Shown here one piece after another: positions 32,091 to 58,301 of a stretch of 64,000 nucleotides of DNA (the stretch's first letter is position 1; each line of letters starts with the position of its first letter). The stretch covers positions 1 to 64,000 of the forward strand of contig NZ_LHVK01000022.1 of NCBI RefSeq assembly GCF_001269905.1, given 5' to 3'. This DNA comes from Pseudomonas corrugata. GTDB taxonomy: Bacteria; Pseudomonadota; Gammaproteobacteria; Pseudomonadales; Pseudomonadaceae. Made by a program: the position numbers and the translations under genes. A model generated the notes under the pieces. The model was not told where the DNA came from, did no database searches, and was given only the letters and a program-made list of their open reading frames with translations.

Positions 32091-32178
32091 GGCCTCACGC
32101 GGCACTGTTCAATTCTCACGAAAAATACCGGTCCGCGCGGTACGGGACGGCCCGTCCGCGCGCGAAAGGGAGGTACTG

Positions 32179-33600: not shown

Positions 33601-33611
33601 GGACTTGAATC

Positions 33612-34961
33612 ATGTACGAGCAATACAAGACAGCGCAGAAGAAGTTCTGGCATCCGATGAGCTCCGCGGCACCGGCCCAGCGTTCGAAAACCCTGATCAT
33701 CGCCAAGGGAGACGGCAACTACATCACTGATATCGACGGCCAGCGCATGCTCGACGGCGTCGGCGGCTTGTGGAACGTCAACGTGGGCCACAATCGAGCC
33801 TCGGTAAAGGCCGCCATTGCCGCGCAACTGGACGAACTGGCGTATTACCAGACGTTCGATGGCATCGCCCATCCGCGGGTGTTCGACCTGGCTGAGCGGC
33901 TGATCTCGATGTTTGCCCAGGAGAACATGGCCAGGGTGCTGTTCAGCGCCGGTGGTTCGGACGCGGTGGAGACCGCATTGAAAATGGCCCGCCAGTACTG
34001 GATCGCCAGCGGCGAGCCGGGGCGTACCCGTTTCCTGTCATTGCGCAACGGTTACCACGGCGTGCACATGGGCGGCACTTCGGTGGGCGGTAACGGTGTG
34101 TATCACTACAACCACGGGCCATTGCTCGCGGGCTGCCATTTGCTCGACACGCCGTGGCTGTATCGCAACCCCTGGGATTGCCGCGATCCGGAAGAACTGA
34201 CTGCCCACTGCATTCGTCAGTTGGAAGACCAGATCGCGCTGTTGGGCGGGCAAACCATCGCTGCGCTGATCGCCGAACCGGTGCAGGGGGCGGGCGGCGT
34301 CATCGTGCCGCCGGCGAACTACTGGAAGAGGCTGCGGGAAGTCTGCGATCGCCACGGCATTCTGTTGATCGCCGATGAAGTGGTGACGGGGTTCGGCCGC
34401 ACGGGTTGCATGCTCGGCAGTCGGGGTTGGGGCGTCGCGCCGGACGTGTTGTGCCTGGCCAAGGGCATCACCGCCGGTTACATCCCGATGGGCGCCACGG
34501 TGTTCAACCAGCGGATCGCCGATGCCATTGAGAGCGGGCCGGGGTTCAGCAGTGTGATCATGCATGGCTACACCTATAGCGGCCACCCGACCGCGTGTGC
34601 CGCGGCCCTGGCGGTGCTGGACATTGTCGAGGCCGAGGATCTGCCGGGCAACGCCGGGAAAATCGGCGCTCAGTTGCTGGAGCAGCTGCAACCGCTGGCG
34701 GAGCGCTACGCGGTGGTCGGTGAGGCGCGCGGCAAGGGCTTGATGATCGCCCTGGACCTGGTAACGGACAAGGCCACCCGCGAGCCCCTCGATCCGGCGA
34801 CCGGCCTTGCTACGCGGATTGCCGATGAAGCGCGCCGTGGCGGTGTGCTGGTGCGTCCGATCGGCAACAAGATCGTCTTGTCGCCGCCGCTGACCCTGAC
34901 ATCAGAAGAAGCCGGTTTGATCGTTCGGGCCCTCGATCACGGCCTGGCCACCTGCCGCTGA
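33612..34961 (+). CDS. Class III (omega-amino acid) aminotransferase
   Basis: A 449-residue PLP enzyme of the ornithine/omega-amino-acid:pyruvate group. It shows KKFWHPMSS at the start, GGSDAVETALKMARQY (about 117), the PLP-stacking YHGVHMGG, the Asp in LIADEVVTGFGRTG and the Schiff-base Lys in CLAKGITAGYIPMG (about 289). It moves the terminal amino group of a diamine, beta-alanine-like or arylalkylamine-like substrate to pyruvate or 2-oxoglutarate. The permease, ALDH and this enzyme make a plausible import-transaminate-oxidise module. Confidence 0.9.
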   Translation: MYEQYKTAQKKFWHPMSSAAPAQRSKTLIIAKGDGNYITDIDGQRMLDGVGGLWNVNVGHNRASVKAAIAAQLDELAYYQTFDGIAHPRVFDLAERLISMFAQENMARVLFSAGGSDAVETALKMARQYWIASGEPGRTRFLSLRNGYHGVHMGGTSVGGNGVYHYNHGPLLAGCHLLDTPWLYRNPWDCRDPEELTAHCIRQLEDQIALLGGQTIAALIAEPVQGAGGVIVPPANYWKRLREVCDRHGILLIADEVVTGFGRTGCMLGSRGWGVAPDVLCLAKGITAGYIPMGATVFNQRIADAIESGPGFSSVIMHGYTYSGHPTACAAALAVLDIVEAEDLPGNAGKIGAQLLEQLQPLAERYAVVGEARGKGLMIALDLVTDKATREPLDPATGLATRIADEARRGGVLVRPIGNKIVLSPPLTLTSEEAGLIVRALDHGLATCR

Positions 34962-34967
34962 CCTGCA

Positions 34968-34995
34968 AAGCCGGTGCGGTCATCTGCACCGGCTT
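34968..34995. terminator. Hairpin after the aminotransferase gene
   Basis: AAGCCGGTGC (34968-34977) and GCACCGGCTT (34986-34995) form a perfect 10-bp stem with an 8-base loop, 6 bp after the stop. No T-run follows, so it may weaken rather than end transcription into the porin gene 51 bp on. Confidence 0.55.
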
Positions 34996-35046
34996 CACGA
35001 ATCGCCAAGACAGCCTTTGAAAGGCGCACCACAAGGAGCTTCAGCC

Positions 35047-36372
35047 ATGCGGTATCCATCGCGTATTGAATTTTTCAGCAGCGGTCTCGCCTGCACGTTG
35101 GCGTTCTGCGCCATGGGCCAGGCCCAGGCCTATGAGCTGTACGCCGACGAAGACAGCCACCTCAACGCCGACCTGCTGGCGGTGTTCGGTCATTTCAACA
35201 GCCGCAAGAACTACGACGGCACACCGGGCGGGTCTACCTGGCGGGAAGGTTTCATCAAGTATGGCGTGAGTGGCGATCAGGCCCTGGCCGGCCGTGGCAC
35301 CGCCTACGGCGCATTCAGCCTGGTCAGTTCCGCGACCTGGGGAGACGGTGACGCGGCGGGGAACAGCCTGGGCACCGAGCGGACCACGAAAATCGAAGAC
35401 GCTTACCTGGGCTGGCGATCCGCCGATCTGTTCCCGCTGTTGGGCCAGGACGGCGTCGACATCTCCGGCGGACGCCAGGTGGTCAAGTTGGGCAGGGGAT
35501 TCTTGATCAACGACGACGGGCCGAACATGGGCAAGGGACCCGCCGATGGCCGCCTGAACCGCGGTGGCGCCTATTACCTGGCGGCTCGACACGCTTTCGA
35601 CCAAACCGCCGTGGTGCGCCTGGGTGGGCAGGACGGTGTGCATGGCAGTGTGGCGTGGCTCAAGTCCGACAACCGCGCCCAGGCCGAAACCGAACTGGCC
35701 GCCAGTACCCTGGACTACACCGCCAAGGCCGGAACGCTGGGGCTGACCTGGGTCCATGGCATTGACGTGAGTGACCGCTGGGCCAGTGATTTCCAGAAAC
35801 AACGCAAAGGCATGAACGTCTACAGCATTCGCGGTGAGGGTGACGCAGGCATCGAGAACGCCAGCCTGGCGTTTGAATATGCCTGGCAAGACAAGGACGC
35901 CGGTCCCGAGAAAGCCTGGTACGCCGAGGCCGGATATACCTTTGCCGACGTGACCTGGTCACCGAAACTGACATACCGCTATTCCCGCTACTCGCAGAAA
36001 TGGGACTCGCTGTTTACCGGCCAGAGTACCGGCTACGGGACCTGGTTCCAGGGCGAAGTGGCCGGCAACTACGCCGGGCCATTCAACAGCAATACCGCCA
36101 TCCACCACGTCGGCCTGAAGGCCGCCCCACTGGAGAACCTGACCCTCGGCGTGCTGTTCTTCGATTTCAACACGGTGCGCAAAAGCAATGCGCTGGACCT
36201 GGATGCGCGGGAGCTGGACCTCTATGCCGAGTGGGCCGTCAATCCGCACCTGATCGTCACCCCGCTCATAGGGCTCTACAAACCGGACCGGGACTCGACC
36301 ACAGGCGGCAATCAAGCCACCGGCAACGGCACCAACGTGTACAGCCAGGTGAGTGTGGCCGTTCCGTTCTGA
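35047..36372 (+). CDS. Outer-membrane beta-barrel porin-like protein
   Basis: A 441-residue exported protein: signal peptide of about 25 residues ending AMGQAQA-YEL, then alternating polar/hydrophobic strands rich in Tyr, Trp and Gly, ending in VSVAVPF with the C-terminal Phe read by the BAM machinery. It resembles barrel proteins of the alginate-export/OprD-like size class but lacks clear OprD marks, so the substrate is open. ATG 35047 has AAGGAG 8 bases upstream and directly opens the signal peptide; the TTG 35017 alternative does not. By position it probably brings the substrate of this catabolic region across the outer membrane. Confidence 0.8.
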   Translation: MRYPSRIEFFSSGLACTLAFCAMGQAQAYELYADEDSHLNADLLAVFGHFNSRKNYDGTPGGSTWREGFIKYGVSGDQALAGRGTAYGAFSLVSSATWGDGDAAGNSLGTERTTKIEDAYLGWRSADLFPLLGQDGVDISGGRQVVKLGRGFLINDDGPNMGKGPADGRLNRGGAYYLAARHAFDQTAVVRLGGQDGVHGSVAWLKSDNRAQAETELAASTLDYTAKAGTLGLTWVHGIDVSDRWASDFQKQRKGMNVYSIRGEGDAGIENASLAFEYAWQDKDAGPEKAWYAEAGYTFADVTWSPKLTYRYSRYSQKWDSLFTGQSTGYGTWFQGEVAGNYAGPFNSNTAIHHVGLKAAPLENLTLGVLFFDFNTVRKSNALDLDARELDLYAEWAVNPHLIVTPLIGLYKPDRDSTTGGNQATGNGTNVYSQVSVAVPF

Positions 36373-36412: not shown

Positions 36413-37171
36413 CTAGCGCTGAAGGGGAGCGGGTGGATTCTGCATTTTTTCGGCAATGCGCCGGGTGGTCTCCATCACCATTTCAACCACGGTTTCCTGG
36501 CGCAGCAGCTTGAAGCTCTGGGTGCTGCCGACCGCGGAAAGGCTGCCCACCACCTCGTCGATCTCGGAATTGATGATCGGCGCGGCGATACCGGTCAGTC
36601 CCTGGTTGAGTTCGTCATGGGTCAGGCAGTAGCCATCCTTGCGGATCTTTTTCGCCGCCTTGGAAAAGCTGGCCCAGTCGTAGGGATTGTCCGGGTCGTT
36701 GGCCAGGTGCTCGTCGTACAGGCGTTGCAGGCGCCGGCTCTTCTGGAAGGCGATCAGAACCTTGGACTGCGCACCGCGAAAAAACGGCAGCGGCTGGCCG
36801 CGACCGAAGGCAAAGCGGTACGTGTCAGTGGGTTCGGCGATGTAGGTGTTGATGATGTGACCGTCGTAGAAAACGCTGGCGAACACTGCCAGGCCGGTTT
36901 CTTCGGACAGCTCGTGCATCAGCTCGCGGCCGGCCACAAGGATCGGATCGTACTGCCGCATCATCCAGTCCAGCTCGATGATCCGTGGACCCAGGCCATA
37001 GCTGCCGGCATCCACCCGACTCAGCAGGCCGGCGTCGCACAGGTCCTTGACGTAGCGGTACACGGTCGCCCGTGAGAGGCCCATGTGCTCGGCGATGGTG
37101 TCGGGGTCGATCTTCAACCGTTGCGGGCCGAACAGGTCCAGGACACTCAACATTTTACTCAGACTGCTCAT
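36413..37171 (-). CDS. IclR-family transcriptional regulator
   Basis: A 252-residue regulator: winged HTH in residues 5-65 (DTIAEHMGLSRATVYRYVKD) and the IclR effector domain after it (LMHELSEETGLAVFASVF, FSKAAKKIRKDGY, GIAAPI). ATG 37171 (MSSLSKML) gives the normal family length; the open frame to 37303 adds an unlike 44-residue head. It is divergent from the nine-gene operon starting at 37444 and is probably its regulator, as IclR proteins commonly control adjacent aromatic-acid operons. Confidence 0.9.
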   Translation of the reverse strand: MSSLSKMLSVLDLFGPQRLKIDPDTIAEHMGLSRATVYRYVKDLCDAGLLSRVDAGSYGLGPRIIELDWMMRQYDPILVAGRELMHELSEETGLAVFASVFYDGHIINTYIAEPTDTYRFAFGRGQPLPFFRGAQSKVLIAFQKSRRLQRLYDEHLANDPDNPYDWASFSKAAKKIRKDGYCLTHDELNQGLTGIAAPIINSEIDEVVGSLSAVGSTQSFKLLRQETVVEMVMETTRRIAEKMQNPPAPLQR

Positions 37172-37443
37172 TTGGCTCCTAAAGGGGAAGGGCGCGTGGC
37201 TGGCCGTTTGGTGAGCACTATAGGTAGACGCGCCTGGGATGGAAAGCCTGCTCACCGGCTGATGCAAGCGCTGCCACGTTACTCCAGAGCTTGAGAAATG
37301 CAAGCGGATTTGCAGGTTGTGATGCGCTATAAACTCACGTTAATCTCAAAATACGAGCTTTATGCAAATAAAATACTTGTTTTGTTGGTTTTGATGTGTG
37401 ATAAATCTCAGCCATTGCAAACGCTCGAACAAGAGGGCTGGAA
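37172..37443 (+). promoter_or_regulatory. AT-rich control region between IclR and the nine-gene operon
   Basis: A 272-bp divergent gap, AT-rich from 37310 to 37430. AAAATAC occurs at 37348-37354 and 37370-37376, 22 bp apart on the same strand (two helical turns). IclR binding and both promoters probably lie here. I could not fix the -10 and -35 elements. Confidence 0.4.
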
Positions 37444-38985
37444 ATGAATGGCGCGCAATTGATAGTGAAGGCGGCGGTGGCAAGCGGTATCGAGTACTGC
37501 TTCGCCAACCCCGGAACGACCGAAATCCCCCTGGTGGCCGCCATGGCCAGCGCCCCGGCCCTCAAGCCGGTCCTGTCCTTGTTCGAAGGTGTGTGCACCG
37601 GCGCCGCGGACGGTTACGGCCGGATTGCCGGCAAGCCGGCGATGACCCTGACGCACCTGGGGCCTGGTTTCGCCAACGGCATTGCCAACCTGCACAACGC
37701 CCGTCGCGCCAACACGCCGATTGTCAACGTCATCGGCGATCACGCCTCCTGGCACGTCAACTACGATCCGCCGCTGGCCAGCGATATCCAGGCATTGGCC
37801 GGGAGCGTCTCCGGCTGGGTGCGTACCTCGCGCACGGCATCGGGTATCGGCGAGGATCTCCAGGAGGCCGTGCGGTCCGCCTGGCAAGCCAAGGGCCAGA
37901 TCGCCAGCCTGATCCTGCCGATGGACCTGCAAGCCAACGAAGTGGCGCGGGAAACGGCCTTCAGCACCTTGCACGCGCCGGTTCGGCGGTTTGCCGGTGA
38001 CCGGATCGAAGCCATCGCCCAGGCACTGCGCAATGGTCAGCGGCTGGTGTTTATCGTGGGTGACCAGGGCCTGTCGGTTGCCGGCCTTGAAGCCGCGGGA
38101 CGCCTGGCGCGATTGCCCGGCGTGCACCTGTTCGCCGAAACCTTCCCGCGCTTGAGCTATCGCGGCGGTGGTCTGCCGGACCTGGATCGCTTGCCCTATT
38201 TCCCCGAAGTGGCCATCGGCGTCCTGGACCAATACGACGCGGTGGTGTGTGCCGGCATTCCAGAGCCGATCAGTTACTTCGGCTACGAAGGTATTCCTTC
38301 TCGCCTGGCGGAACGTGATCGCCTGCTTTACCTGGCCGACGTCGGGGACGACGTGGCCGGTGCACTCACCGCACTGGCCGATGCACTGGAAGCACCGGCC
38401 TTCGTGCCGACGCCGATGGGTGTCGAGTTGCCGCCCGCCACCGACGAGTTGACCCCGCAGTCGATAGGGCAGGTGTTGGCCGCTTCGTTGCCGGATGACT
38501 GCATTGTCTCGGTGGAGGGTGGCACTTGCGGCTACCCGTTCTTCACCGCGTCGGCCCGTGCCGCACGGCATCGGGTGCTGACCAATACCGGGGGCGCCAT
38601 CGGCCAGGGCATTCCGGTGGGGTTCGGTGCTGCGCTGGCCGAGCGAGGCAATCGGGTGTTCTGCCTGCAATCGGACGGCAGTGCCCAGTACACCATCCAG
38701 ACCCTGTGGAGCATCGCCCGGGAACAGCTGCCGGTGGTGATTCTGATCGCCGCCAACCATCGCTACGCAATTTTGCAGAACGAGTTGCGCCGGTTTGGCA
38801 TGACCGATTTCGGTCCCGAAGCCCTGAGCCTGACCGTGCTGGACCGTCCACGCATCGATTGGAAGGCCCTGGCCAAGGGCTACGGCCTGGCGGCGAGCAC
38901 GGTGCACACCAATGCCGAATTGCAACGCGCCTTGGCCAATGCGGCCGTCGATGGCGGTCCTTGCCTGATTGAAATGGCGCTGTGA
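37444..38985 (+). CDS. ThDP-dependent 2-oxo-acid decarboxylase / acetolactate-synthase-like enzyme
   Basis: A 513-residue thiamine-diphosphate enzyme. The cofactor-activating Glu is in LFEGVCTGAADGYGR (Glu48), the central domain follows, and the ThDP/Mg site is QSDGSAQYTIQTLW with the closing Asn in AANHRYAI. No FAD-type acetolactate synthase partner (small subunit) is present. Benzoylformate or phenylpyruvate decarboxylase-like activity fits the following phenylacetaldehyde-dehydrogenase-like gene. It is the first gene of the IclR-controlled operon; the next begins 10 bp after its stop. The real 2-oxo acid cannot be named from sequence. Confidence 0.82.
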   Translation: MNGAQLIVKAAVASGIEYCFANPGTTEIPLVAAMASAPALKPVLSLFEGVCTGAADGYGRIAGKPAMTLTHLGPGFANGIANLHNARRANTPIVNVIGDHASWHVNYDPPLASDIQALAGSVSGWVRTSRTASGIGEDLQEAVRSAWQAKGQIASLILPMDLQANEVARETAFSTLHAPVRRFAGDRIEAIAQALRNGQRLVFIVGDQGLSVAGLEAAGRLARLPGVHLFAETFPRLSYRGGGLPDLDRLPYFPEVAIGVLDQYDAVVCAGIPEPISYFGYEGIPSRLAERDRLLYLADVGDDVAGALTALADALEAPAFVPTPMGVELPPATDELTPQSIGQVLAASLPDDCIVSVEGGTCGYPFFTASARAARHRVLTNTGGAIGQGIPVGFGAALAERGNRVFCLQSDGSAQYTIQTLWSIAREQLPVVILIAANHRYAILQNELRRFGMTDFGPEALSLTVLDRPRIDWKALAKGYGLAASTVHTNAELQRALANAAVDGGPCLIEMAL

Positions 38986-38995
38986 AGGAGGGGAT

Positions 38996-40486
38996 ATGAG
39001 CCAGATCCAATTGTTACCTGCCGTCGAGAAATTCCTTGCGCAACCCGGCCGCTTGTTCATTGGCGGCACCTGGCAGGACGCCGCCAGCGGTCGCCGGTTT
39101 GCCGTGGAAAACCCGGCCAGCGAAAGCAGCGTGGCTGAAGTGGCGGAAGGCGGTGAACGCGATGTCGACGCGGCCGTCGCAGCGGCCCGCGCAGCTTTCA
39201 CCGGGCCGTGGGCGCAGCATTCGCCGGCCCAGCGTGGCCTGTTGTTGTTCCGCCTGGCGGAATTGCTGGATCAGCACCGCGAAGAACTGGCCCAGTTGAT
39301 CACGCTGGAGAACGGCAAGCCGATTGCCATTGCCCGCGGTGAAGCGGCCAGCGCCGCCAACATAATTCGTTATTTTGCCGGCTGGCCGACCAAGATCGAG
39401 GGCAGCACGCACCCGGTGTCTCCCGCCAGCGGCGCGCCGATGCTCAATTACACCGTGCGTGAGCCCGTGGGTGTCTGCGCATTGATCGTGCCTTGGAACT
39501 TCCCGTTGACCATGTGCGTGTGGAAGCTCGGCCCGGTGCTGGCGACCGGTTGCGTCGCGGTGCTCAAGCCGGCCGAACAGACGCCCCTGGCTGCGATTCG
39601 CCTGGTGCAGTTGATCGAGGCCGCCGGCTTCCCGGCCGGGGTGGTCAACCTGATCACCGGCCTGGGCGCCCATACCGGCGCGCCGCTGGCCGGGCACCCG
39701 GACGTGGACAAGATCGCCTTTACCGGTTCGACCCAAGTCGGTCGGCTGATCGCTCAAGCGGCCACCGGCAACATGAAAAAGGTGTCCCTGGAGCTCGGCG
39801 GAAAGTCGCCCAACATCATCTTGCCCGACGCCGATATCGTGCGCGCCGCCAAGGGCGCCGCCGATGGCATCTTCTACAACCAGGGCCAGGTCTGCACCGC
39901 CGGCTCGCGTCTGTATGTGCACGCCAGCGTCCTCGACCAGGTACTGGAAGAGCTCCAGCGCCACGCAGCCGCCCATGTGTTGGGCCCTGGGCTGGATCCG
40001 GCCAGCAGCATGGGGCCGCTGGTGTCGGCCCGCCAACTGGGCTCGGTCCGTGGCTATCTGCAGCGGGGCCAGGAAGAAGGCGCCGAGCTGATCTGCGGCG
40101 GCGACCGGCCGGCCCACCTGGAGCGCGGCCATTTCATTCAGCCCAGCGTGTTCCTTGACCGCGCCGAGCGGGCCTGCGTCGCCCGCGAGGAAATCTTCGG
40201 CCCGGTGCTGACTGTCATGAGCTGGACCGAGGTCGATGAGCTGGTCCTGCGGGCCAACGACTCGCCCTACGGCCTGGCGGCCGGTCTCTGGACCCGGGAC
40301 TTGCGCTCCGCGCACCGCATAGCCGCGCAGCTGAAGGCCGGTTCGGTGTGGATCAACTGCTGGAACGTCGTCGACCCGGCCTCGCCATTCGGTGGCTACA
40401 AACAGTCCGGATGGGGACGGGAAATGAGCAAGAACGTGATCGACGCCTACACCGAAACCAAAAGTGTTTTCGTCGATCTCGCCTGA
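38996..40486 (+). CDS. Aldehyde dehydrogenase, phenylacetaldehyde-dehydrogenase-like
   Basis: A 496-residue ALDH with the N-terminal AVEKFLAQPGRLFIGGTWQD, close in pattern to FeaB/PadA phenylacetaldehyde dehydrogenases. VPWNFPLTMCVWK is the cofactor loop, FTGSTQVGR the Rossmann turn, LELGGKSP carries the base Glu and NQGQVCTAG the catalytic Cys (about 297). It would oxidise the aldehyde released by the preceding decarboxylase. ATG 38996 follows GGAGGGG. Substrate preference (aryl versus alkyl) is inferred from overall pattern and neighbourhood. Confidence 0.88.
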   Translation: MSQIQLLPAVEKFLAQPGRLFIGGTWQDAASGRRFAVENPASESSVAEVAEGGERDVDAAVAAARAAFTGPWAQHSPAQRGLLLFRLAELLDQHREELAQLITLENGKPIAIARGEAASAANIIRYFAGWPTKIEGSTHPVSPASGAPMLNYTVREPVGVCALIVPWNFPLTMCVWKLGPVLATGCVAVLKPAEQTPLAAIRLVQLIEAAGFPAGVVNLITGLGAHTGAPLAGHPDVDKIAFTGSTQVGRLIAQAATGNMKKVSLELGGKSPNIILPDADIVRAAKGAADGIFYNQGQVCTAGSRLYVHASVLDQVLEELQRHAAAHVLGPGLDPASSMGPLVSARQLGSVRGYLQRGQEEGAELICGGDRPAHLERGHFIQPSVFLDRAERACVAREEIFGPVLTVMSWTEVDELVLRANDSPYGLAAGLWTRDLRSAHRIAAQLKAGSVWINCWNVVDPASPFGGYKQSGWGREMSKNVIDAYTETKSVFVDLA

Positions 40487-40512
40487 GCCGAACAATCACA
40501 AGAGGAACTGCT

Positions 40513-41307
40513 ATGGATCTGGAATTACAAGGCCGCGTGGCCATCGTCACCGGCGGTGGCATGGGCATCGGCAAGGAAGTCGCACGCTTTCTGTCCCAGG
40601 AAGGTTGCAAGGTGGTGATCTGCGCGCGGCGCATGGAGTATCTCGAACAGGCCGCTGAAGAAATCACCGCAGAGACCGGCAACGAAGTGCTGCCGCTGTT
40701 CTGTGACACCAACCAGATGTCGGCCGTGTCCGACATGGTGCACGCCGCCCACAAGCACTTCGGCCGCATCGACATCCTGGTCAACGGTGCCGCGGCGCCG
40801 TCCGGCGTGGTGCGCAATGACATCGAGCACGCGGGCGACGATGAACTGCTCTCGGACCTCAACACCAAGGTCATCGGCTATTTCCGGTGTGCCAAGGCCG
40901 TGACCCCGCACATGAAGGCGGGCGGCTTCGGTCGCATCATCAACATCGGCGGCCTGACCGGTCGCGGCAGCAAGGTCCTCTCGGGGATGCGCAACCTGGC
41001 CATTGCCCACATGACCAAGACGCTCTCCGACCAGCTCGGCCCAGCCGGCATCACCGTCAACCTTATCCACCCCGGCGTGGTGGACACCCCGCACATCCAG
41101 GAGCTGTACGAACGCGAAGGGATCAAGCAGGGCAAGACACCGGGGCAGGTCGAGCAGGGCTACATCGACGCGACGCCGATCCGACGCACCCTCGCGCCCA
41201 TCGAAATGGGATGGCTGATCGGCTTCCTGGCATCGCCCAAGGCCGGCGCGGTGACGGGCGAATCCATCGGCATCGATGGCGGCCTGACACGTGGCATCTT
41301 CATTTGA
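40513..41307 (+). CDS. Short-chain dehydrogenase/reductase
   Basis: A 264-residue classical SDR: GGGMGIGKEVA (about 14-24), NGAAAPSG near 92 and the C-terminal GESIGIDGGLTRG. The usual catalytic Y-x-x-x-K is not in its normal form: after NIGGLTGRGSKVLSGM the sequence reads RNLAIAHMTKTL, so the Tyr is replaced and the active site is altered (the Lys may be that of HMTK). This is worth noting because classical SDRs need Tyr. The start with AGAGGAA is clear. Role: an oxidoreductase or, if Tyr-less, a dehydratase/other reaction in the pathway. Confidence 0.8.
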   Translation: MDLELQGRVAIVTGGGMGIGKEVARFLSQEGCKVVICARRMEYLEQAAEEITAETGNEVLPLFCDTNQMSAVSDMVHAAHKHFGRIDILVNGAAAPSGVVRNDIEHAGDDELLSDLNTKVIGYFRCAKAVTPHMKAGGFGRIINIGGLTGRGSKVLSGMRNLAIAHMTKTLSDQLGPAGITVNLIHPGVVDTPHIQELYEREGIKQGKTPGQVEQGYIDATPIRRTLAPIEMGWLIGFLASPKAGAVTGESIGIDGGLTRGIFI

Positions 41308-41319
41308 GGAGCAGCAGCA

Positions 41320-42360
41320 ATGAGTAACGGAACCCTTTTGGTCGCCACCGTCGGGCAGGCGGTGATCCGCAGTGCCGACGACGGCCGCACCTGGCACCGC
41401 CTGGGCCTGGGGCAGGACCTTGAGTTCGATGCAATCACCCGATCCCTGAGTGTCCACCCTGGCACGCCTGAAGTGATCTATGCCGGCACCGACGTCGGCC
41501 TGTGCGTCAGCCACGACACCGGAGGTCACTGGCAGCAGGTGGACTCGCCGTTCAACGGCCAGACCGTGTGGAAGGTGGCCGTGGATCCGGCGGATGCCCA
41601 GCGCATCTTCGTCGGTACGGGCGCTCCTTCCCGAGCCGTGCTCTGGCGCACCCTCGACGGTGGCCGGAGCTGGGACCGTGCCCCGGTGGAAATTCCGGAG
41701 TTCTGCGAGGGTGTCAGTCGACCACGCTTGCTGGCTTTCGCCTATGACCCCACGGATCGCAACCAGCTCTGGTTCGGCCTGGAAGAGGGTGGCCTGTTCC
41801 ACAGCCACGATGGCGGAGACAGTTGGACCCGCGTCGACGACCGACTGCTGTGGGACTTCAACTCGGATGTCCACAACATCCTGGTGCTGCCCAACCATGG
41901 CCAGAAAGTCATCGTGGTGGTGTGCGTCAACGCGGTCTACCGCAGCCTCGATGAAGGACAGACCTGGACCGGGATCATTGCCCGCGAAACTTTCGGCTTG
42001 TACTACGTGCGGGCCATGAACGCACCGTTGGGCAGCGAGAACACGCTCTACCTGAGCATTTCCGACGGCACGCCCGGCACCACCAGCAAAGTGCTCGTCT
42101 CCCGCGATGCGGCGGTCAGTTGGGAGGTGTTGCCACTGCCGCAGCAACCCAATTCGTGCGTCTGGGCGATTGCCTGCAACCCGGCTGATCCGCGCCAGAT
42201 CGTCGCCGGCACCAAGTACGGGCACCTGTTCACTTCCGAGAACGGCGGTGACGGCTGGCAGAAGCAGTGGCGTGAGTTCAGTGAGATCGCTGATGTGCTC
42301 TGGACGCCGGCGGTGGCGCAGATCAAGTCCGGGCACCAATCCATCATCAAGAAGAACTGA
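41320..42360 (+). CDS. Cytoplasmic Asp-box (BNR) beta-propeller protein
   Basis: A 346-residue protein with seven Asp-box-like turns: SADDGRTW, SHDTGGHW, TLDGGRSW, SHDGGDSW, SLDEGQTW, SRDAAVSW and SENGGDGW, spaced about 40-50 residues apart. This predicts a six- to seven-bladed propeller like sialidase/sortilin/YCF48 folds. There is no signal peptide and no sialidase RIP motif, so it is not a secreted glycosidase. It is embedded with 12-bp spacing in the catabolic operon. Possible roles are a pathway enzyme such as a lactonase or a scaffold; neither is shown. Confidence 0.8.
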   Translation: MSNGTLLVATVGQAVIRSADDGRTWHRLGLGQDLEFDAITRSLSVHPGTPEVIYAGTDVGLCVSHDTGGHWQQVDSPFNGQTVWKVAVDPADAQRIFVGTGAPSRAVLWRTLDGGRSWDRAPVEIPEFCEGVSRPRLLAFAYDPTDRNQLWFGLEEGGLFHSHDGGDSWTRVDDRLLWDFNSDVHNILVLPNHGQKVIVVVCVNAVYRSLDEGQTWTGIIARETFGLYYVRAMNAPLGSENTLYLSISDGTPGTTSKVLVSRDAAVSWEVLPLPQQPNSCVWAIACNPADPRQIVAGTKYGHLFTSENGGDGWQKQWREFSEIADVLWTPAVAQIKSGHQSIIKKN

Positions 42361-42371
42361 GGTATCGCGCG

Positions 42372-42821
42372 ATGAAAGTCGAGGTCGTTCGTACTCACCT
42401 GTCGCTGTTCGTTCGCGACCCGGAAACGTCGGCACGCTGGTACGCCGATGTGCTGGGCATGCACGAAAGTGCCCGGGGGGAGAGCTGGATCATGATGGCG
42501 TTCGGTGCCAAGCACCACGACATCGCGTTACTCCGCGCCGAGCCGGGGGCCCATCAGGGTGGCCTGGGATTGCAGCACTACGGGCTGGAAATCGCAGGTG
42601 ACTTGACCACGCTGCGCCAGCTGTACGGCATGTTGCTCAGCAAGGGGATCGAAGTGGTGAAAATCACCGATCACGAAATCGGCAATGGCGTGTACTTCAA
42701 CGACCCCGACGGCAACCGCATGGAATTCTTCCTCGAGACTGAACATGACGATGAGCGCGGCAAGGCCCGTTTCAGGGCCGCCGGAGCACCCAGTCGCAAG
42801 TTTGATCTCGATCCACTTTGA
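42372..42821 (+). CDS. Small VOC-fold protein, extradiol-dioxygenase-like
   Basis: A 149-residue vicinal-oxygen-chelate protein. The metal triad is visible as His9 (RTHLSLFV), His69 (LQHYGLEI) and Glu118 (RMEFFLE), and the segment GVYFNDPDGNRMEFF is the family's extradiol-dioxygenase C-terminal mark. At one module pair it is half the length of common type I extradiol dioxygenases (about 290) and near the small one-domain class. It may cleave the ring after the flavin hydroxylase, or be an isomerase/glyoxalase. The former fits the order with hydrolase and hydratase. Confidence 0.8.
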   Translation: MKVEVVRTHLSLFVRDPETSARWYADVLGMHESARGESWIMMAFGAKHHDIALLRAEPGAHQGGLGLQHYGLEIAGDLTTLRQLYGMLLSKGIEVVKITDHEIGNGVYFNDPDGNRMEFFLETEHDDERGKARFRAAGAPSRKFDLDPL

Positions 42822-42835
42822 AAGAGCACCGAGCC

Positions 42836-43438
42836 ATGAAAACCGCGAATTTTGCTACTTACCACATCCGTAAATGGTACAGCTTCGTCGAAGAAACCCT
42901 GGCCAACGAAAGTGGCCAACTGGCCGATGGCGAGCCCTTGTTCAAATATGCCATTGGCGCCGTGATCGCCAATCCCTATGCCGGGCGCTTCAGCGAAAGC
43001 CTGGCCGAGTTGATCGAGCCGTCGCCCTTGCTGGGCCAGGAGTTCGGTCGGCGCATCCAGGCACTGGCGGGCGAGCACGAGATCGTCAGCTATGGCAAGG
43101 CGTGCCTGGTCGGCAGCCAGGGCGAGTATGAGCATGGCAATGCGCTGTTGACCAATCCGGCGGCGGATCCGATTCGTGTCGCCCTGGGCGGCGGCAAGTC
43201 CTGGGTACCGTCCACCGGCAAGCGTGGCGGCCCTGGCGTGACCATCGACGTGCCGCTGGCTCACAAGGATGCGCTGTACGTGCGTTCGCACTACGACAGC
43301 ATTTCGCTTTCATTTGGCGACGGCCCCTCTGCTGACGAACTGGTCATCATCTGGGCGTTCGCCACCCGTGGGCGTTTGCACGCGCGTCTGGGCGGCCTGC
43401 AAGCCGCGGACGTCAAGGGCAACGACGGCTTGTATTAA
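42836..43438 (+). CDS. DUF1185 / amino acid synthesis family protein
   Basis: A 200-residue protein of the PF06684 family (named AA_synth, though no reaction is established). Marks seen: RKWYSFVEETL, AVIANPYAG, SYGKACLVGSQGEYEHGNAL and GGGKSWVPSTGKRGGPG. The last has a Gly/Lys-rich, phosphate-loop-like look. Soluble, no signal. ATG 42836 is chosen over 42818, which overlaps the VOC stop. Its presence in an aromatic-type catabolic operon suggests a catabolic step, contrary to the family name. Confidence 0.85.
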   Translation: MKTANFATYHIRKWYSFVEETLANESGQLADGEPLFKYAIGAVIANPYAGRFSESLAELIEPSPLLGQEFGRRIQALAGEHEIVSYGKACLVGSQGEYEHGNALLTNPAADPIRVALGGGKSWVPSTGKRGGPGVTIDVPLAHKDALYVRSHYDSISLSFGDGPSADELVIIWAFATRGRLHARLGGLQAADVKGNDGLY

Positions 43439-43450
43439 GGGGCGTTGATC

Positions 43451-44332
43451 GTGGGAACCGAACGAATGTCCGCAAACAGCCATTTCTTCAGCAATCGGAC
43501 GGGGATGCGCCTGCACTATCTGTCCTGGGGCAGCCCGTCAGGCATCCCGGTGGTGCTGCTCCATGGGCTGCGATCCTACGCCCAGACCTGGCAATCCCTG
43601 GCCGATGCCTTGGGTGCGCCCTATTGTTGCTATGCCCTGGACCAGCGTGGCCGAGGGCACAGCGACTGGGCGCCCGCCGACACCTACCGGACCGAGGCCT
43701 ATGTCAGCGATCTGGAAGACCTGGTTGCGCACCTGGGGTTGCAGAGATTCGTCCTGCTGGGCCACTCCCTCGGGGGTACCAATGCGCTGGAGTATGCACG
43801 GCTCAATCCCGGGCGGCTCCAGGCGCTGGTGATCGAGGATATCGGGCCCGGTTCCTCCATCAGCGGCGATGGCGCCGAGCGCATTCGCCGGGAAATGAGC
43901 GAAACGCCCCTGTGTTTTCCTGACTGGGAAAGTGCCGCTCAATTCTGGCTGCAGGCGCGTCCGGGGTTGTCCCAGCAGGCGCTGGCGTCCAGGTTGACGT
44001 ATTCCATGAAGGAAACCCTCAAAGGCATCGAATGGCGTCACGACCAGCAAGGCATTGCCCAGGCACGCCTGAGTATTACGCCGACGGACCTGTGGCCGGC
44101 GGTGCGGGCGCTGGATTGCCCGACGCTGTTCATCCGTGGCGGGCGTTCCGACTTTCTTCCGGCGGCAACCCTGGAAGCCATGAAGACCGCCAATCCGCTG
44201 GTGCACACCACGGAAGTCGCCGATGCCAGTCACTACGTCCATGATGACCAGGGGAAAACCTTCAACCGTGTCGTCAGGGATTACTTGCACGGCCAGCACC
44301 TACAACCACAACAACGAAGCGGTGAAGCGTGA
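43451..44332 (+). CDS. Alpha/beta hydrolase (MhpC-like class)
   Basis: A 293-residue alpha/beta-fold hydrolase. LLHGLRSYAQTW is the oxyanion segment, GHSLGG holds the nucleophile Ser (about residue 106), the acid is Asp in RGGRSDFLP and the base His in ASHYVHDDQG. It fits a C-C hydrolase cleaving a ring-fission product, or an ester or enol-lactone hydrolase. GTG 43451 lies 10 bases after AAGGGG; ATG 43466 would give 288 residues and is the alternative. Its stop overlaps the next start (ATGA, 44332). Confidence 0.85.
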   Translation: MGTERMSANSHFFSNRTGMRLHYLSWGSPSGIPVVLLHGLRSYAQTWQSLADALGAPYCCYALDQRGRGHSDWAPADTYRTEAYVSDLEDLVAHLGLQRFVLLGHSLGGTNALEYARLNPGRLQALVIEDIGPGSSISGDGAERIRREMSETPLCFPDWESAAQFWLQARPGLSQQALASRLTYSMKETLKGIEWRHDQQGIAQARLSITPTDLWPAVRALDCPTLFIRGGRSDFLPAATLEAMKTANPLVHTTEVADASHYVHDDQGKTFNRVVRDYLHGQHLQPQQRSGEA

Positions 44333-45939
44333 TGAAGCAGGACAAAACCCAGGTGGTCATCGTGGGCGGTGGCCCGAACGGGATCACCGCCGCGCATTAC
44401 ATGGGCCTGTACGGTATCGATTGCGTCGTCCTCGAACTGGCGGACGGGATCCTGCCGTACCCCCGCGCGGTGGGCATGGATGATGAAGCGTTGCGGGTGT
44501 TGCAGGGCATCGACATCGCTGAGCTGGCCAGCCGGGACATGATCTGCAATGTGCCCTTGCGCTACTACAACGCCCGCGGCGTGTGCTTTGCTGAAGTCAA
44601 GCCGAGTACCGCCCACTATGGTTGGCCGATGCGCAACATTTTCATGCAGCAGTTGCTGGAAGGGACGTTGCGGGAACAACTGGACCGGCACCCCGGTGTC
44701 GATCTGCGCCAGGGGCATGAAATGCTCGACCTGGAGCAGGACGGGCAAGGGGTGACGTTGCAGGTGCGCGACGCCCAGGGCGAGTTGTACCAGTTGCAGG
44801 CGCAATACGTGATTGGCGCCGATGGCGGCCGTTCCAGCGTGCGCAAGAAGCTCGGCATCGAGCTGCTGGGCCTGACCCATCCGCGCAAATGGGTGGTGGT
44901 CGACACGGCCAACGATACCCAGGATGCACCCTATACGGCCTTGCACGCCGATCCTCAACGGCCCTTCGTCTGCATCTACCTGCCGTACCAGCAGCGCCGC
45001 TGGGAGTTCATGCTGCTGGAGGGCGAAGATGAAAACACGATGTGCGAGGAAGCGACCATCCGTGGCTTGATCCGCGGGCACATCGGCAATGCCGCGGATG
45101 AACTGGAGATCATCCGCATACGCGCCTACACCCATAACTCCCGGGTCGCGGCGCGGTTTGTCGAAGGGCACGTGGCCTTGGTGGGCGATGCGGCGCACAT
45201 TTCCCCGCCGTGGGCCGGGCAGGGGCTCAATTCGGGTCTGCGGGACGTGGTGAACATCGCCTGGAAAATCGCCGCCATCATCCAGGGGCGTGCGTCGGCA
45301 TCGATACTTGCCAGTTACGACCAGGAGCGACGTGGGCACGCCACCGACCTCATTGCCTTGGCCGATAACATGGGCGCCGTATTGGGGCTGACCAATCCGC
45401 TGATGGCGGGTGTGCGGGACTGGCTGTTCCAGGCCGTCAACAGTGTCGACAATCTGCGCTCGCACCTGCTGGAGTTCAAGTTCAAACCCAAGGCGACCAT
45501 TACCAAAGGCCTGGTGCATCACGAACGGGCGGAGCTGCACGAGGATGACCTGGTGGGGCAGTTGTTCATCCAGCCGACCGTCGAAGATGAGCAAGGCCAG
45601 CGTCGGCGCTTGGACGAGGTGCTGGGAACTTCATATGCCGTGCTGGGTTATCGGGTCAATCCGAACGAGCCGCTCAGCGAAGAGACCCGTGCCTACTGGG
45701 CGCGCTGGAACACCCGCTTCATTCAGGTCAACCGTTCCCGAAGCGGCAAGGGGCGTAACCAGCCGTTGTCCGCGAGCCAGGCGATCTGCGTCGAAGACGT
45801 CGATAACCGCTTGGGAGAGTGGTTTGCCAAGGTGCGGGACTGCGTCGTGGTGGTGCGGCCAGACCGTTTCGTTGCCGCGATTACCACGCCCGAGAGGCTG
45901 GAAGGCGTACTGCGCAAACTCGCGGAGCAGCTGTCATGA
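44332..45939 (+). CDS. FAD-dependent aromatic hydroxylase, MhpA-like
   Basis: A 535-residue class A flavoprotein monooxygenase. Dinucleotide motif IVGGGPNGITAA (residues 10-21), the DG motif GADGGRSSVRKK (about 163) and GDAAHISPPWAGQGLNSG (about 285-302). The C-terminal thioredoxin-like part present in MhpA/phenol hydroxylases reads DRFVAAITTPERLEG. MhpA converts 3-(3-hydroxyphenyl)propionate to the 2,3-dihydroxy form; the real substrate here may be any hydroxyaryl carboxylate. GTG 44329 is an alternative start. Overlaps by 1 base upstream and 4 downstream. Confidence 0.9.
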   Translation: MKQDKTQVVIVGGGPNGITAAHYMGLYGIDCVVLELADGILPYPRAVGMDDEALRVLQGIDIAELASRDMICNVPLRYYNARGVCFAEVKPSTAHYGWPMRNIFMQQLLEGTLREQLDRHPGVDLRQGHEMLDLEQDGQGVTLQVRDAQGELYQLQAQYVIGADGGRSSVRKKLGIELLGLTHPRKWVVVDTANDTQDAPYTALHADPQRPFVCIYLPYQQRRWEFMLLEGEDENTMCEEATIRGLIRGHIGNAADELEIIRIRAYTHNSRVAARFVEGHVALVGDAAHISPPWAGQGLNSGLRDVVNIAWKIAAIIQGRASASILASYDQERRGHATDLIALADNMGAVLGLTNPLMAGVRDWLFQAVNSVDNLRSHLLEFKFKPKATITKGLVHHERAELHEDDLVGQLFIQPTVEDEQGQRRRLDEVLGTSYAVLGYRVNPNEPLSEETRAYWARWNTRFIQVNRSRSGKGRNQPLSASQAICVEDVDNRLGEWFAKVRDCVVVVRPDRFVAAITTPERLEGVLRKLAEQLS

Positions 45940-46715
45940 AGCCATGGGATGAACTGCCGGGCCAGCTTCATCAGGCGACGTTGACGGCGCGGGCGCTACC
46001 GCCATTGGCCCCCCAGGCCTTTGACTTGTCGACCGGCTACGTCCTGCAGCGCGAGGCGTTGCGCCAGCGTCAGGCCCGAGGCGAGCAGTTGAGCGGATGG
46101 AAGGTGGCCTTCGCCGGGGGCGCGGCGCAGAAGCGGATGGGTATCGAAGAACCGGTGCTGGGTGCGCTGACCGACGCCATGGCCGTCGAGCCCGGCGGTT
46201 CGGTAGACCTGGCGAGCCTGATCCAGCCCAAGCTGGAGATCGAAATGGCATGCTTCCTGGGACGGACCCTGGCGCCGGGTGAGCACAGTGACGAGGCGAT
46301 CCTGGCGTGCGTGTCCGCAGTCGCCCCGGCCTTCGAGATCGCCGATTGTCGATGGCAGGGCTGGAGCTTCGGCGTCGGGGCGTTCCTGGCCGACAACGCG
46401 GCGGCGGGGCGGTATTGCGTGGGCCCGCGTATTGAACTCGAGCCGGGCCAGTTACCCCACGTGAGCTATTGCCTGGAACGGGATGGGGTGGACTGCGGTA
46501 ACGGTGACACCCAAGCGCGGGAGGATACGCCACAGGTCAATCTCTGTTGGCTGATCCGGCGATTGCTGGCGGATGGGCAGCGCCTCGAGGCGGGGCAGGT
46601 CGTATTGTCGGGGGCGTTGCTGCCGCCCATGGACATCCAGCCCGCGCAATACCGTTTGCACATGCTTGGCACGGAACTGGCTATGGCTTTCCGGGCGGGC
46701 GCTGGCGCTCCGTAA
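45936..46715 (+). CDS. 2-keto-4-pentenoate hydratase-like (MhpD/FAH superfamily) protein
   Basis: A 259-residue protein of the fumarylacetoacetate hydrolase/hydratase superfamily. GWKVAFAG (about 48), the metal-binding acid cluster in IQPKLEIEMACFLGR (Glu-x-Glu near 97) and APAFEIADCRWQGW agree with MhpD/HpcG hydratases; the length is near the usual 260-270. It would add water to a 2-hydroxydienoate. No aldolase or acetaldehyde dehydrogenase follows, unlike mhpABCDFE. It overlaps the hydroxylase stop by 4 nt. Last gene of the operon. Confidence 0.87.
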   Translation: MKPWDELPGQLHQATLTARALPPLAPQAFDLSTGYVLQREALRQRQARGEQLSGWKVAFAGGAAQKRMGIEEPVLGALTDAMAVEPGGSVDLASLIQPKLEIEMACFLGRTLAPGEHSDEAILACVSAVAPAFEIADCRWQGWSFGVGAFLADNAAAGRYCVGPRIELEPGQLPHVSYCLERDGVDCGNGDTQAREDTPQVNLCWLIRRLLADGQRLEAGQVVLSGALLPPMDIQPAQYRLHMLGTELAMAFRAGAGAP

Positions 46716-46794: not shown

Positions 46795-47730
46795 ATGCTC
46801 GCCGAAGTCCGTACCTTCAATGATCCTCAACAGCATGCCGGCTCGATCCTGGGCTGGCAGCAGGTCTATGACCAGCTCGGGCGCGGATGCCTGTCCAGCG
46901 AGCTGCAGCAGATTTGCGCCGAGCGTTTCCAGATCTTCCAGGAAGTGCTGGATAAGCGTGTGGTGCAGCGCGGCTGCGCGCCAAAGGGACGCCTGTGCAT
47001 TGCCATGTCCCTGGGCAGCGCGCCGGTGGTCCAGGGGCATCAGGTCGATGCTCACAACGTCGTGCTGCTGCGCGACGGAGAAGACTTTGTCCTGCACGCC
47101 CCGGAAGGGACGCGGTTCTTCGCGATCAACGTCGACATGGTGCGTTTCGCCAAGCTGGCGGCCTATGAGCTGCCGGACGAGCAGCTCAAGCGCTTGAAAA
47201 ACGTGTCCCAGGTCAGCGTGGATGAGACGGTTCTGCTGCGTGTTCAGCAGAGGATTCATCCGCTGTTTCGCCGACTCCTGGAGCAGCCGGACGCGATCAC
47301 TCCGGCCTCGGAAAAAGTTCTGGAGGACGTCCTCCTCGATGCCTTCCTCGATCTGTTCAGCCATGCCTCGGACGAAGTCCGGGGACGGCGCGGTAATTTT
47401 GCCGTCAGCGCCTATCTGGTCAAGCGCTGCCAGGAGCTGGTAGGGGACAGCGATACATCCCTGAGCATCCTCGATCTTTGCGAGCAACTACGGGTCAGTC
47501 GCAGGACCCTGCAGAACAGTTTTCAGGCCGTGACCGGTATGCGTCCGGTCGAGTACCTGCGCAACCTGCGGCTCAATGCCGTGCGGCGTCGCTTGATCAC
47601 TACCCAGGCAACCGCGCAGAACGTTGGCGAGATCGCCGTGGCCATGGGCTTCTTTCACCTGAGCCACTTCGCGACGCATTACCGGGAGTTGTTCGGCGAG
47701 TCACCCTCGGAAACCCCCAGGGTCAGATAA
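46795..47730 (+). CDS. AraC-family regulator, EutR-like (copy 1)
   Basis: A 311-residue regulator. The C-terminal double HTH reads LDLCEQLRVSRRTLQNSFQ, then TGMRPVEYLRNLRLNAVRRR and IAVAMGFFHLSHFATHYREL, the pattern of EutR, the ethanolamine regulator of enterobacteria. The N-terminal 190 residues are a beta-rich sensor. GAGGAA precedes ATG 46795. It resembles the AraC protein at 58370, by eye about one third identical in the sensor part and more in the HTH. It probably activates the operon before it or the transport block after it. Confidence 0.85.
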   Translation: MLAEVRTFNDPQQHAGSILGWQQVYDQLGRGCLSSELQQICAERFQIFQEVLDKRVVQRGCAPKGRLCIAMSLGSAPVVQGHQVDAHNVVLLRDGEDFVLHAPEGTRFFAINVDMVRFAKLAAYELPDEQLKRLKNVSQVSVDETVLLRVQQRIHPLFRRLLEQPDAITPASEKVLEDVLLDAFLDLFSHASDEVRGRRGNFAVSAYLVKRCQELVGDSDTSLSILDLCEQLRVSRRTLQNSFQAVTGMRPVEYLRNLRLNAVRRRLITTQATAQNVGEIAVAMGFFHLSHFATHYRELFGESPSETPRVR

Positions 47731-48683: not shown

Positions 48684-48688
48684 GCAGA

Positions 48689-55183: not shown

Positions 55184-55288
55184 CGCAGTCGCCTCATCAA
55201 TCGTCAAAGACATCGGGAACGCACTTGAACCACCACCCTCGGCACCTCGCAGGGTTTGGAGGGTGGTTCGCTCAGTGCAATATTGTTC

Positions 55289-56743: not shown

Positions 56744-56786
56744 GTTTGGATCCATGAATGTTGTGCAGTGGTCAGGTAGACCCGTT

Positions 56787-58163: not shown

Positions 58164-58283
58164 GACGGTCTCTCTGGATGTCGATTGGAGTGTGCCGATC
58201 ATCTCCAGCGCGCCTCCCCAAGCGGTAGCCCGAATCGGCACATGGGTGAATTGCGCCGAAGGTGGAGAGTGATATTCTGCTAT

Positions 58284-58301
58284 GGAATTTTTCGAAATTC
58301 C
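58284..58301. promoter_or_regulatory. Perfect GGAATTT-TTCG-AAATTCC hairpin/operator
   Basis: A 7-bp perfect palindrome with a TTCG centre lies in the 206-bp gap between the divergent aminotransferase and AraC genes, 68 bp before the AraC start. In RNA it would be a stable UUCG-capped hairpin in the AraC leader; in DNA it could be a regulator site. Which one is right cannot be told here. Confidence 0.4.

Follow-up and report, generated by a model that had tools for sequence, protein, structure and literature searches.

The question raised by this locus is what a nine-gene operon of Pseudomonas corrugata, located at positions 37444-46715 on the plus strand of the window (the whole 64,000-nt stretch of DNA analysed here), degrades and by which reactions. 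Its nine open reading frames (ORFs) follow the order thiamine diphosphate (ThDP)-dependent decarboxylase, aldehyde dehydrogenase (ALDH), short-chain dehydrogenase/reductase (SDR), Asp-box (BNR) propeller, VOC protein, DUF1185 protein, alpha/beta hydrolase, flavin hydroxylase (FMO), and MhpD-like protein (Table 1). The ORF list, Pfam, and NCBIfam agree with the families named in the first-pass annotation of the sequence, and the Pfam matches across the operon proteins comprise TPP_enzyme N and C, Aldedh (580.6 bits), adh_short, Sortilin/PSII_BNR, Glyoxalase, and Abhydrolase_1. The first seven genes are separated by 10, 26, 12, 11, 14, and 27 bp in gene order, the hydrolase and FMO genes overlap by 1 bp, and the FMO and MhpD-like genes by 4 bp; given these short gaps and the two overlaps, the nine genes are likely transcribed as a single unit. 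Our gene caller found eight of the nine genes and skipped the MhpD-like gene, which is present in the ORF list as a longer frame (45819-46715). We conclude that the catabolic operon is real, conserved in many lineages, and, as far as can be seen, undescribed, and we read it as a new variant of the aromatic meta-cleavage pathways.

The distribution of the operon was followed through its propeller gene. A scan of the genome collection, from which the best 80 of 166 relatives were kept (the 86 weaker ones lie outside the set), yielded 79 loci spanning Pseudomonadota as well as Streptomyces and Nonomuraea. The other genera include Pseudomonas, Marinomonas, Marinobacterium, Vibrio, Acinetobacter, Nitrincola, Amphritea, Achromobacter, Hydrogenophaga, Janthinobacterium, Curvibacter, Ideonella, Bradyrhizobium, and Dongia. 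The closest named relatives among the best 80 of 166 belong to Pseudomonas, e.g., P. mediterranea with 97% identity. Within the family of the window, the propeller was found in 18 of 398 sampled genomes (its own genome included), and a search of 398 genomes for the SDR gave four hits at E 1e-70, all in propeller-bearing genomes. Relatives of the propeller with E values of 1e-20 or below were found in nine plasmid records, and the propeller patterns gave no match in viral contigs.

Gene content was compared over the 71 loci in which the BNR gene has 5.5 kb or more of sequence to either side, namely 67 of the 79 scan loci, the window, and three plasmid copies (L026-L028); of the 12 scan loci dropped, 11 had less than 5.5 kb on one side, and in one (L090) the propeller gene was uncalled. 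Relatives were counted by tblastn at identity thresholds that we set ourselves (at least 50% for the ALDH and at least 55% for the aminotransferase), and a gene termed missing is absent from the stretch of at most 10 kb on each side of the BNR gene, not from the genome. Relatives of the VOC protein were present at 70 loci, of the FMO and DUF1185 proteins at 68 each, and of the ThDP enzyme and the SDR at 67 each. The hydrolase and the ALDH followed with 58 loci each, the IclR-family regulator with 56, and the MhpD-like protein with 49. The order ThDP-[ALDH]-SDR-BNR-VOC-DUF1185-hydrolase-FMO was seen in most of the mapped loci (the 79 and the three plasmid copies), and the gene following the 75 called ThDP genes was an ALDH in 62 cases and the SDR in 10. 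Across the 52 loci that have all seven core proteins, the pairwise identities of one protein track those of the others (Spearman coefficients of 0.90-0.95), a correlation that reflects common descent and is uncorrected for the species tree. Judged from the sequences, the operon is more than a chance grouping because its gene content and order recur in two phyla. DUF1185 alone is a poor marker of the operon: it occurs in 41 of 299 sampled genomes of the phylum, and none of the 36 DUF1185 loci retrieved showed this operon, five of them having been examined one gene at a time.

The FMO and the VOC protein point to hydroxylation and ring opening of an aromatic compound. The FMO scored 760.6 bits on NF004831 (cut-off 546) and 231.4 bits on FAD_binding_3, which places it among the MhpA-type hydroxylases, as first proposed. 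A Rhodococcus relative of this hydroxylase (43%) lies amid CoA-transferase, enoyl-CoA hydratase, and P450 genes and is of no help on the substrate. In the VOC protein, H69, Y108, and E118 were present in 73 of 73 aligned sequences, H101 in 72, and H9 in 70, with gaps in the other three; these and all later residue counts rest on gene calls, and our own gene-calling script may miss or mis-start genes in relatives. H9, H69, and E118 would form the 2-His-1-Glu site of a type I extradiol dioxygenase, complemented by H101 and Y108, with residue roles that we take to be those of catechol 2,3-dioxygenase. The PDB relatives of the protein are homoprotocatechuate dioxygenase (E 4.6e-6) and catechol 2,3-dioxygenase (2.2e-5), with FosA next (6.9e-5).

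The third member of this group is the propeller, in which no export signal was visible by eye. Its AlphaFold2 model (pLDDT 89.9) matched best the structure 3b7f, described as a putative BNR-repeat glycosyl hydrolase (Z 32.2, root-mean-square deviation 3.0 over 321), followed by the gluconolactonase PpgL (Z 28.6) and the Neurospora muconate lactonizing enzyme (28.0), with GH74 enzymes among others. Unrelated WD40-type proteins reached Z 25-27, against 32 and 28; since they score not far behind, a lactonase- or isomerase-like role for the propeller is only a guess from its company and fold. A distant propeller relative in Novosphingobium pentaromativorans (~30%) also adjoins a VOC gene.

Partial loci indicate how these genes may work together. 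Three loci, in Ideonella (L079) and Curvibacter (L083 and L084), have the BNR, VOC, and FMO genes and lack the ThDP, SDR, DUF1185, and hydrolase genes altogether. The 21 kb covered in Novosphingobium humi has BNR, VOC, DUF1185, hydrolase, ThDP, and SDR genes and no FMO, locus L107 lacks FMO and hydrolase, and across the 71 loci, the SDR and DUF1185 genes mostly travel with the ThDP decarboxylase. In our reading, FMO, VOC, and BNR make up a ring-opening block, and a processing block comprises ThDP, SDR, DUF1185, and hydrolase. Among propeller-bearing Pseudomonadaceae, the hydrolase was kept in 17 of 17 genomes tested; nine of them have it in the operon, and the other eight carry it at a distance of ~8.5-12.3 kb from the propeller gene. 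Separately, Marinobacterium ramblicola (L073, 17630-20929) carries a second BNR-VOC-FMO cassette right after the operon.

The place of the ThDP enzyme in the pathway is the point on which the first-pass annotation and the present analysis differ. The former had an aryl 2-oxo acid decarboxylated by the ThDP enzyme to an arylacetaldehyde and oxidized by the ALDH to an arylacetate, with hydroxylation, ring cleavage, hydrolysis, and hydration to follow, and it gave the BNR, SDR, and DUF1185 proteins no role. The enzymes themselves lend this order some support. The ThDP protein scored 661 bits on NF005760 (cut-off 363), benzoylformate decarboxylases come out as its closest relatives in the PDB (E 1.5e-28), and Glu48 and His71 were invariant in 74 of 74 sequences; despite a score of 172.7 bits on the benzoylformate decarboxylase equivalog NF005485, below the cut-off of 493, it may work like a benzoylformate decarboxylase. 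The best model for the ALDH is the phenylacetaldehyde dehydrogenase StyD (NF045735, 592.6 bits, below the cut-off of 850), and these two genes stand first in the operon. Nonetheless, the three FMO-VOC-BNR loci do without the ThDP gene, a relative of the hydratase-like protein is missing at 22 of 71 loci, including those of Burkholderia and Streptomyces, and an aldolase would have to act on the hydrated product; no protein in the genome scores above the TIGR03217 aldolase cut-off. We consider the early-decarboxylation order unlikely.

The SDR provides the other clue. The absence of the usual Tyr noted earlier was borne out in a stronger form, in that the Lys of the YxxxK motif is lost too: Ser157 and Asn161 take the two positions, S157, R160, and N161 were present in 74 of 74 aligned SDRs, and all of these proteins thus lack the classical catalytic pair. 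In a single-sequence PDB search, the top hit was Microcystis AerF (E 9.8e-47 versus 1e-30 for the next), and in a profile search, AerF (6jh7) had E 8.4e-61, with the next hit at 2.1e-44 and BacG (3u49) third at 5.2e-44. AerF, which shows 35-36% identity in the structural table, has S-G-x-x-N at the YxxxK position in the alignment, and by the sequence match and this AerF motif the SDR is assigned to the AerF/BacG type. Both AerF and BacG reduce a C=C bond conjugated to a ketone, and the H2HPP and H4HPP compounds are 2-oxo acids of the hydroxyphenylpyruvate type. In excerpts of one paper, BacG is described as the reductase converting epoxy-3E-H2HPP to epoxy-4S-H4HPP (PMC9147277). Because FMO, VOC, and BNR occur without ThDP, SDR, DUF1185, and hydrolase at three loci and because the SDR is of the AerF/BacG type, action of the ThDP enzyme and the SDR late, on the ring-cleavage product, rather than early, on an aryl 2-oxo acid, fits better, a preference that we hold with modest confidence. 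Of the route originally drawn, aromatic catabolism, hydroxylation, and ring opening (here of the extradiol kind) are supported, and the ThDP step is tentatively moved from the start to a later place.

The lower end of a classical meta pathway consists of hydratase, aldolase, and acylating aldehyde dehydrogenase steps. The enzymes of the latter two had been reported as absent from the operon, which is correct, and the genome as a whole gave no match to the acylating acetaldehyde dehydrogenase MhpF (TIGR03215) and none above cut-off to the hydroxy-oxovalerate aldolase MhpE (TIGR03217; best 140.6 bits, cut-off 286). The hydratase assignment of the MhpD-like protein is weaker: E101, E103, and E134 were kept in 53 of 53 sequences, and the scores on TIGR03220 (118.8 bits, cut-off 408.8), TIGR03218 (110.6 bits), and Pfam FAA_hydrolase (19.5 bits, cut-off 23.9) were all below cut-off. 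The position of the Pseudomonas MhpD-like gene, after FMO, is occupied elsewhere by a gene for a NIPSNAP protein (L027, 15604-15936), with relatives in Burkholderia, Variovorax, Janthinobacterium, Hydrogenophaga, and Streptomyces, and a 128-residue carboxymuconolactone-decarboxylase-like protein (named by eye; L065, 4632-5018) turns up close to the operon in nine groups, most of them marine.

The hydrolase and the DUF1185 protein bring in another explanation, that the substrate is a nitrogen heterocycle or the enamide formed by its ring opening, as in trigonelline or vitamin B6 degradation, from which the hydrolase would free a semialdehyde, an amine, and CO2 while DUF1185 acts like TgnF. S101, D125, D229, and H256 of the hydrolase were invariant in 66 of 66 sequences; its PDB relatives are 3kxp, an alpha-(N-acetylaminomethylene)succinate hydrolase (E 2.3e-18), whose aligned Asp the hydrolase keeps, and HsaD (7zjt, E 1.4e-11), and on the C-C hydrolase equivalogs (BphD, HsaD), it stayed far below cut-off (TIGR03343, 29.6 bits versus 462.15; NF045632, 53.4 versus 400). 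The DUF1185 protein is a clear member of PF06684, the family of TgnF according to excerpts of one paper (PMC7913881), and the Burkholderia pyrrocinia cluster includes an annotated succinate-semialdehyde dehydrogenase gene. Set against this, FMO and VOC indicate phenol hydroxylation and catechol cleavage, and the second Asp of the hydrolase, D229, has no counterpart in 3kxp in the alignment, which makes a nitrogen heterocycle quite improbable. Elsewhere in the same genome (L137, G000:C28:1-17000), a second DUF1185 gene lies by genes for an alpha/beta hydrolase, two aldehyde dehydrogenases, and, named by eye, flavin-reductase-like and carboxymuconolactone-decarboxylase-like proteins, possibly an N-heterocycle cluster.

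From the gene set, its conservation, the catalytic residues, and the gene linkage observed, we infer the reactions, their order, and the substrate, and we lean tentatively towards aerobic catabolism of a phenolic (hydroxyaryl) carboxylic acid by ring cleavage followed by an SDR/ThDP/ALDH finish. The hydroxyaryl acid would most likely arise from a phenolic amine through the products of the neighboring permease, aminotransferase, and aldehyde dehydrogenase genes. The MhpA-like flavin enzyme would then add a ring hydroxyl adjacent to the existing one (step 1), and the one-domain VOC enzyme would open the ring in extradiol fashion (step 2), with the propeller acting beside both, where it might serve as a lactonase or isomerase for the product of ring opening (step 3). 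Cutting of the opened chain by the hydrolase (step 4) would leave an alpha,beta-unsaturated 2-oxo acid, the C=C bond of which the AerF/BacG-type SDR could reduce with NAD(P)H (step 5). The saturated 2-oxo acid would be decarboxylated to an aldehyde by the ThDP enzyme (step 6), and the aldehyde oxidized by the ALDH to a carboxylic acid for central metabolism (step 7), so that steps 5-7 would replace the hydratase-aldolase-acylating dehydrogenase ending. The MhpD-like protein, or elsewhere the NIPSNAP or carboxymuconolactone-decarboxylase-like protein, might tautomerize, hydrate, or decarboxylate an intermediate, and DUF1185 may be an accessory factor for the hydrolase and aldehyde steps. That such an aldolase-free finish, in which a Tyr-less AerF-type SDR reduces, the ThDP enzyme decarboxylates, and the ALDH oxidizes with the aid of the propeller and DUF1185, constitutes an alternative ending of meta cleavage carried as a cassette by Pseudomonadota and Actinomycetota is a serious though somewhat doubtful possibility.

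The proposed source of the acid rests on the surroundings of the operon, which lies between two units with amine-related genes (Table 1). The permeases 30642-32090 and 59645-61093, 29 kb apart, flank the island, and their identity of 88.6% suggests two related amine uptake systems. Relatives of unit 2 recur beside other copies: beside the minimal cassette of Curvibacter, the ALDH (81%), the AraC-type regulator (57%), and a cytochrome b of only 26%; beside the Burkholderia operon, the ALDH (52%), cytochrome b (56%), AraC (43%), and permease (39-40%); and beside that of N. humi, the cytochrome b (53%). Where the hydrolase gene is relocated, it sits behind genes for a member of the 'tyramine oxidase subunit B' (TynB) family, a Rid-like protein, and a glycine/sarcosine-oxidase-type FAD oxidase (L042, L053, L086, L183, and L184). 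The name 'tyramine oxidase subunit B' comes from the NCBI family and was not found as a phrase in the literature searched; the protein scored 732.6 bits on NF004848 (cut-off 362). TynB-family genes were found in 19 of 397 family genomes and in 10 of the 18 propeller genomes, within ~10 kb of the operon in seven of those 10, and beside the relocated hydrolase in seven genomes. On these amine-gene links and the TynB-family association, we favor, with low confidence, a phenolic amine as the substrate, giving a hydroxyaryl acid that would enter the ring pathway. Histamine-, tyramine-, and nicotinate-type substrates were considered, and the data support the amine-gene linkage only. Sulfatase-like genes (named by eye) lie near the operon in Achromobacter (L096, 14789-16384), Marinobacterium (L065, 2723-4327), and Pseudomaricurvus (L071, 19735-21027), and the substrates of these copies could be sulfated phenols.

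Several observations count against the pathway and substrate favored here. The VOC protein also matches FosA-type models and reached 39.6 bits on the catechol 2,3-dioxygenase model (cut-off 320.2), and the named PDB enzyme closest to the hydrolase acts on a C-N (enamide) bond instead of the C-C bond of meta-cleavage products. AerF ranked only fifth among structural ties of the SDR and BacG only 13th by single sequence, and the crystal of AerF bound to NADPH and 4-hydroxyphenylpyruvic acid (title of PDB entry 6jhb) could also imply an early aryl-pyruvate substrate, as in the decarboxylation-first order. The division into blocks is not strict because locus L101 has the SDR without ThDP and FMO, and the Bradyrhizobium locus L103, with its BNR, DUF1185, hydrolase, and ThDP genes, lacks VOC, FMO, and SDR. 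An aldolase could also come from either of two HpcH/HpaI-family proteins encoded elsewhere in the genome. As regards the amine, an aminotransferase relative is near only 25 of the 71 loci, the P. corrugata genome has no close TynB copy, one genome (G397) has a moved hydrolase without a TynB match, and the co-occurrence of TynB-family and propeller genes (Fisher p 1.4e-10) takes the samples of 397 and 398 genomes as the same and is uncorrected for relatedness.

Table 1. Features of the operon and its surroundings in the window
Feature	Coordinates	Strand	Basis
ThDP-dependent decarboxylase, benzoylformate-decarboxylase-like; proposed 2-oxo acid decarboxylase	37444..38985	+	NF005760, PDB relatives, Glu48/His71
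Aldehyde dehydrogenase (ALDH), phenylacetaldehyde-dehydrogenase-like	38996..40486	+	StyD model NF045735 best
AerF/BacG-type SDR without YxxxK; proposed conjugate (enone) reductase	40513..41307	+	Motif, profile, structure
Asp-box (BNR) propeller; proposed lactonase/isomerase-like step (guess)	41320..42360	+	AlphaFold2 model, structural matches
Single-domain VOC protein; proposed extradiol ring-cleavage dioxygenase	42372..42821	+	Residues, PDB relatives
DUF1185/PF06684 (TgnF/HcdD family) accessory protein	42836..43438	+	Pfam PF06684 (AA_synth), 211.9 bits, gathering cut-off 27
Alpha/beta hydrolase	43466..44332	+	Catalytic residues, PDB relatives
MhpA-like class A flavin hydroxylase (FMO)	44332..45939	+	NF004831, FAD_binding_3
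MhpD/4-oxalocrotonate-decarboxylase superfamily enzyme	45936..46715	+	TIGR03220/TIGR03218 below cut-off
Divergent IclR-family regulator, proposed controller	36413..37303	-	TIGR02431 (PcaR/PcaU/PobR family), 92.8 bits, below cut-off
AraC-family regulator, directly downstream (named by eye)	46795..47730	+	Frame; start chosen manually at 46795
Amine unit 1: APC-type permease, aldehyde dehydrogenase, class III aminotransferase, OprD-like porin (by eye)	30642..36372	+	
Amine unit 2, minus-strand part: cytochrome b561-like, phenylacetaldehyde-dehydrogenase-like, class III aminotransferase	within 54620..61093	-	
Amine unit 2, plus-strand part: AraC-type regulator, APC-type permease	within 54620..61093	+	

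The downstream AraC-family regulator is 34% identical to the AraC-type regulator at 58370-59332. The stretch upstream of the ThDP gene is partly conserved (42 loci), and a promoter and terminator scan gave counts not above those of shuffled sequence. Beside the first permease, a chemoreceptor-like gene (named by eye; 28229-30322, minus strand) may sense the amine. After the operon, the 48000-52774 part of the window holds GntR, amino-acid ABC transporter, and gamma-glutamyltransferase genes (named by eye), and a gamma-glutamyltransferase gene is also near the B. pyrrocinia operon copy.

If the proposed pathway is true, four puzzling families would gain a function at once, namely DUF1185, the soluble Asp-box propeller, the Tyr-less SDR, and the PRK07586 'acetolactate synthase', which are currently annotated as amino acid synthesis protein, sialidase, SDR/glucose dehydrogenase, and acetolactate synthase, respectively. 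Among soil and marine bacteria, the operon is frequent enough to be of consequence for annotation.

We finally compared the operon with known systems. The statement of the first-pass annotation that no named pathway has this set agrees with the open-access literature, where, among the matches listed, no paper on the gene set was found; the nearest papers deal with the hcd cluster (PMC7913881, PMC6222606) and a DUF1185 structure (PMC2954203). One remaining explanation is that the operon is a variant of the classical mhp pathway for 3-(3-hydroxyphenyl)propionate or of the hcd pathway for 7-hydroxycoumarin. The likeness to mhp of E. coli lies in the MhpA-like hydroxylase, ~39% identical to E. coli MhpA records, and the MhpD-superfamily protein. 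However, MhpB is a LigB-type dioxygenase, in place of which the operon has the VOC protein, the only dioxygenase-like protein among the nine; this replacement, together with the genome lacking an MhpF match and an MhpE match above cut-off, led us to reject identity with mhp.

The hcd cluster of Pseudomonas mandelii 7HK4 likewise combines a flavin hydroxylase (HcdA), a small extradiol dioxygenase (HcdB), an FAH-family protein (HcdC), and a DUF1185 protein (HcdD), as given in excerpts of the two papers (PMC7913881, PMC6222606). In the excerpts of the first, every attempt to detect an effect of HcdD failed, and the cluster has a zinc alcohol dehydrogenase, a cupin, and an FMN reductase, with no ThDP or BNR protein described there (PMC7913881). 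A Pseudomonas locus with the hcd gene types FMN reductase, cupin, zinc alcohol dehydrogenase, DUF1185, FAH, VOC, and FMO (most named by eye; L167, G030:C108:41000-59000) allowed a direct comparison: identities to the window proteins were 27% for FMO, 26% for VOC (121 residues), and 43% for DUF1185, and the FAH-family protein gave no match at E 0.01. Identity with hcd was rejected on this low identity to a locus with the published gene types. The ThDP enzyme, the propeller, and the AerF-type SDR were seen in neither gene set. A variant of mhp or hcd appears very improbable.

The mandelate pathway (MdlC/MdlD) pairs a benzoylformate decarboxylase with an aldehyde dehydrogenase, and the operon resembles it in having a benzoylformate-decarboxylase-like enzyme beside an ALDH; it differs in the sub-cut-off NF005485 score of that enzyme and in having no mandelate dehydrogenase among its nine genes. 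In the tgn system of Acinetobacter baylyi, which acts on trigonelline, ring opening is by a two-component monooxygenase, and a hydrolase, TgnD, is a feature in common with the operon. Also shared is the DUF1185 protein, TgnF, which is said in excerpts of one paper to stimulate aldehyde oxidation by TgnE (PMC7913881), whereas the VOC, BNR, SDR, and ThDP proteins of the operon are additional to tgn. Finally, AerF and BacG, from aeruginosin and bacilysin biosynthesis, share with the operon SDR the fold and, in the AerF alignment, the replacement of YxxxK; they are biosynthetic enzymes, whereas their counterpart here is part of a degradative-looking operon.

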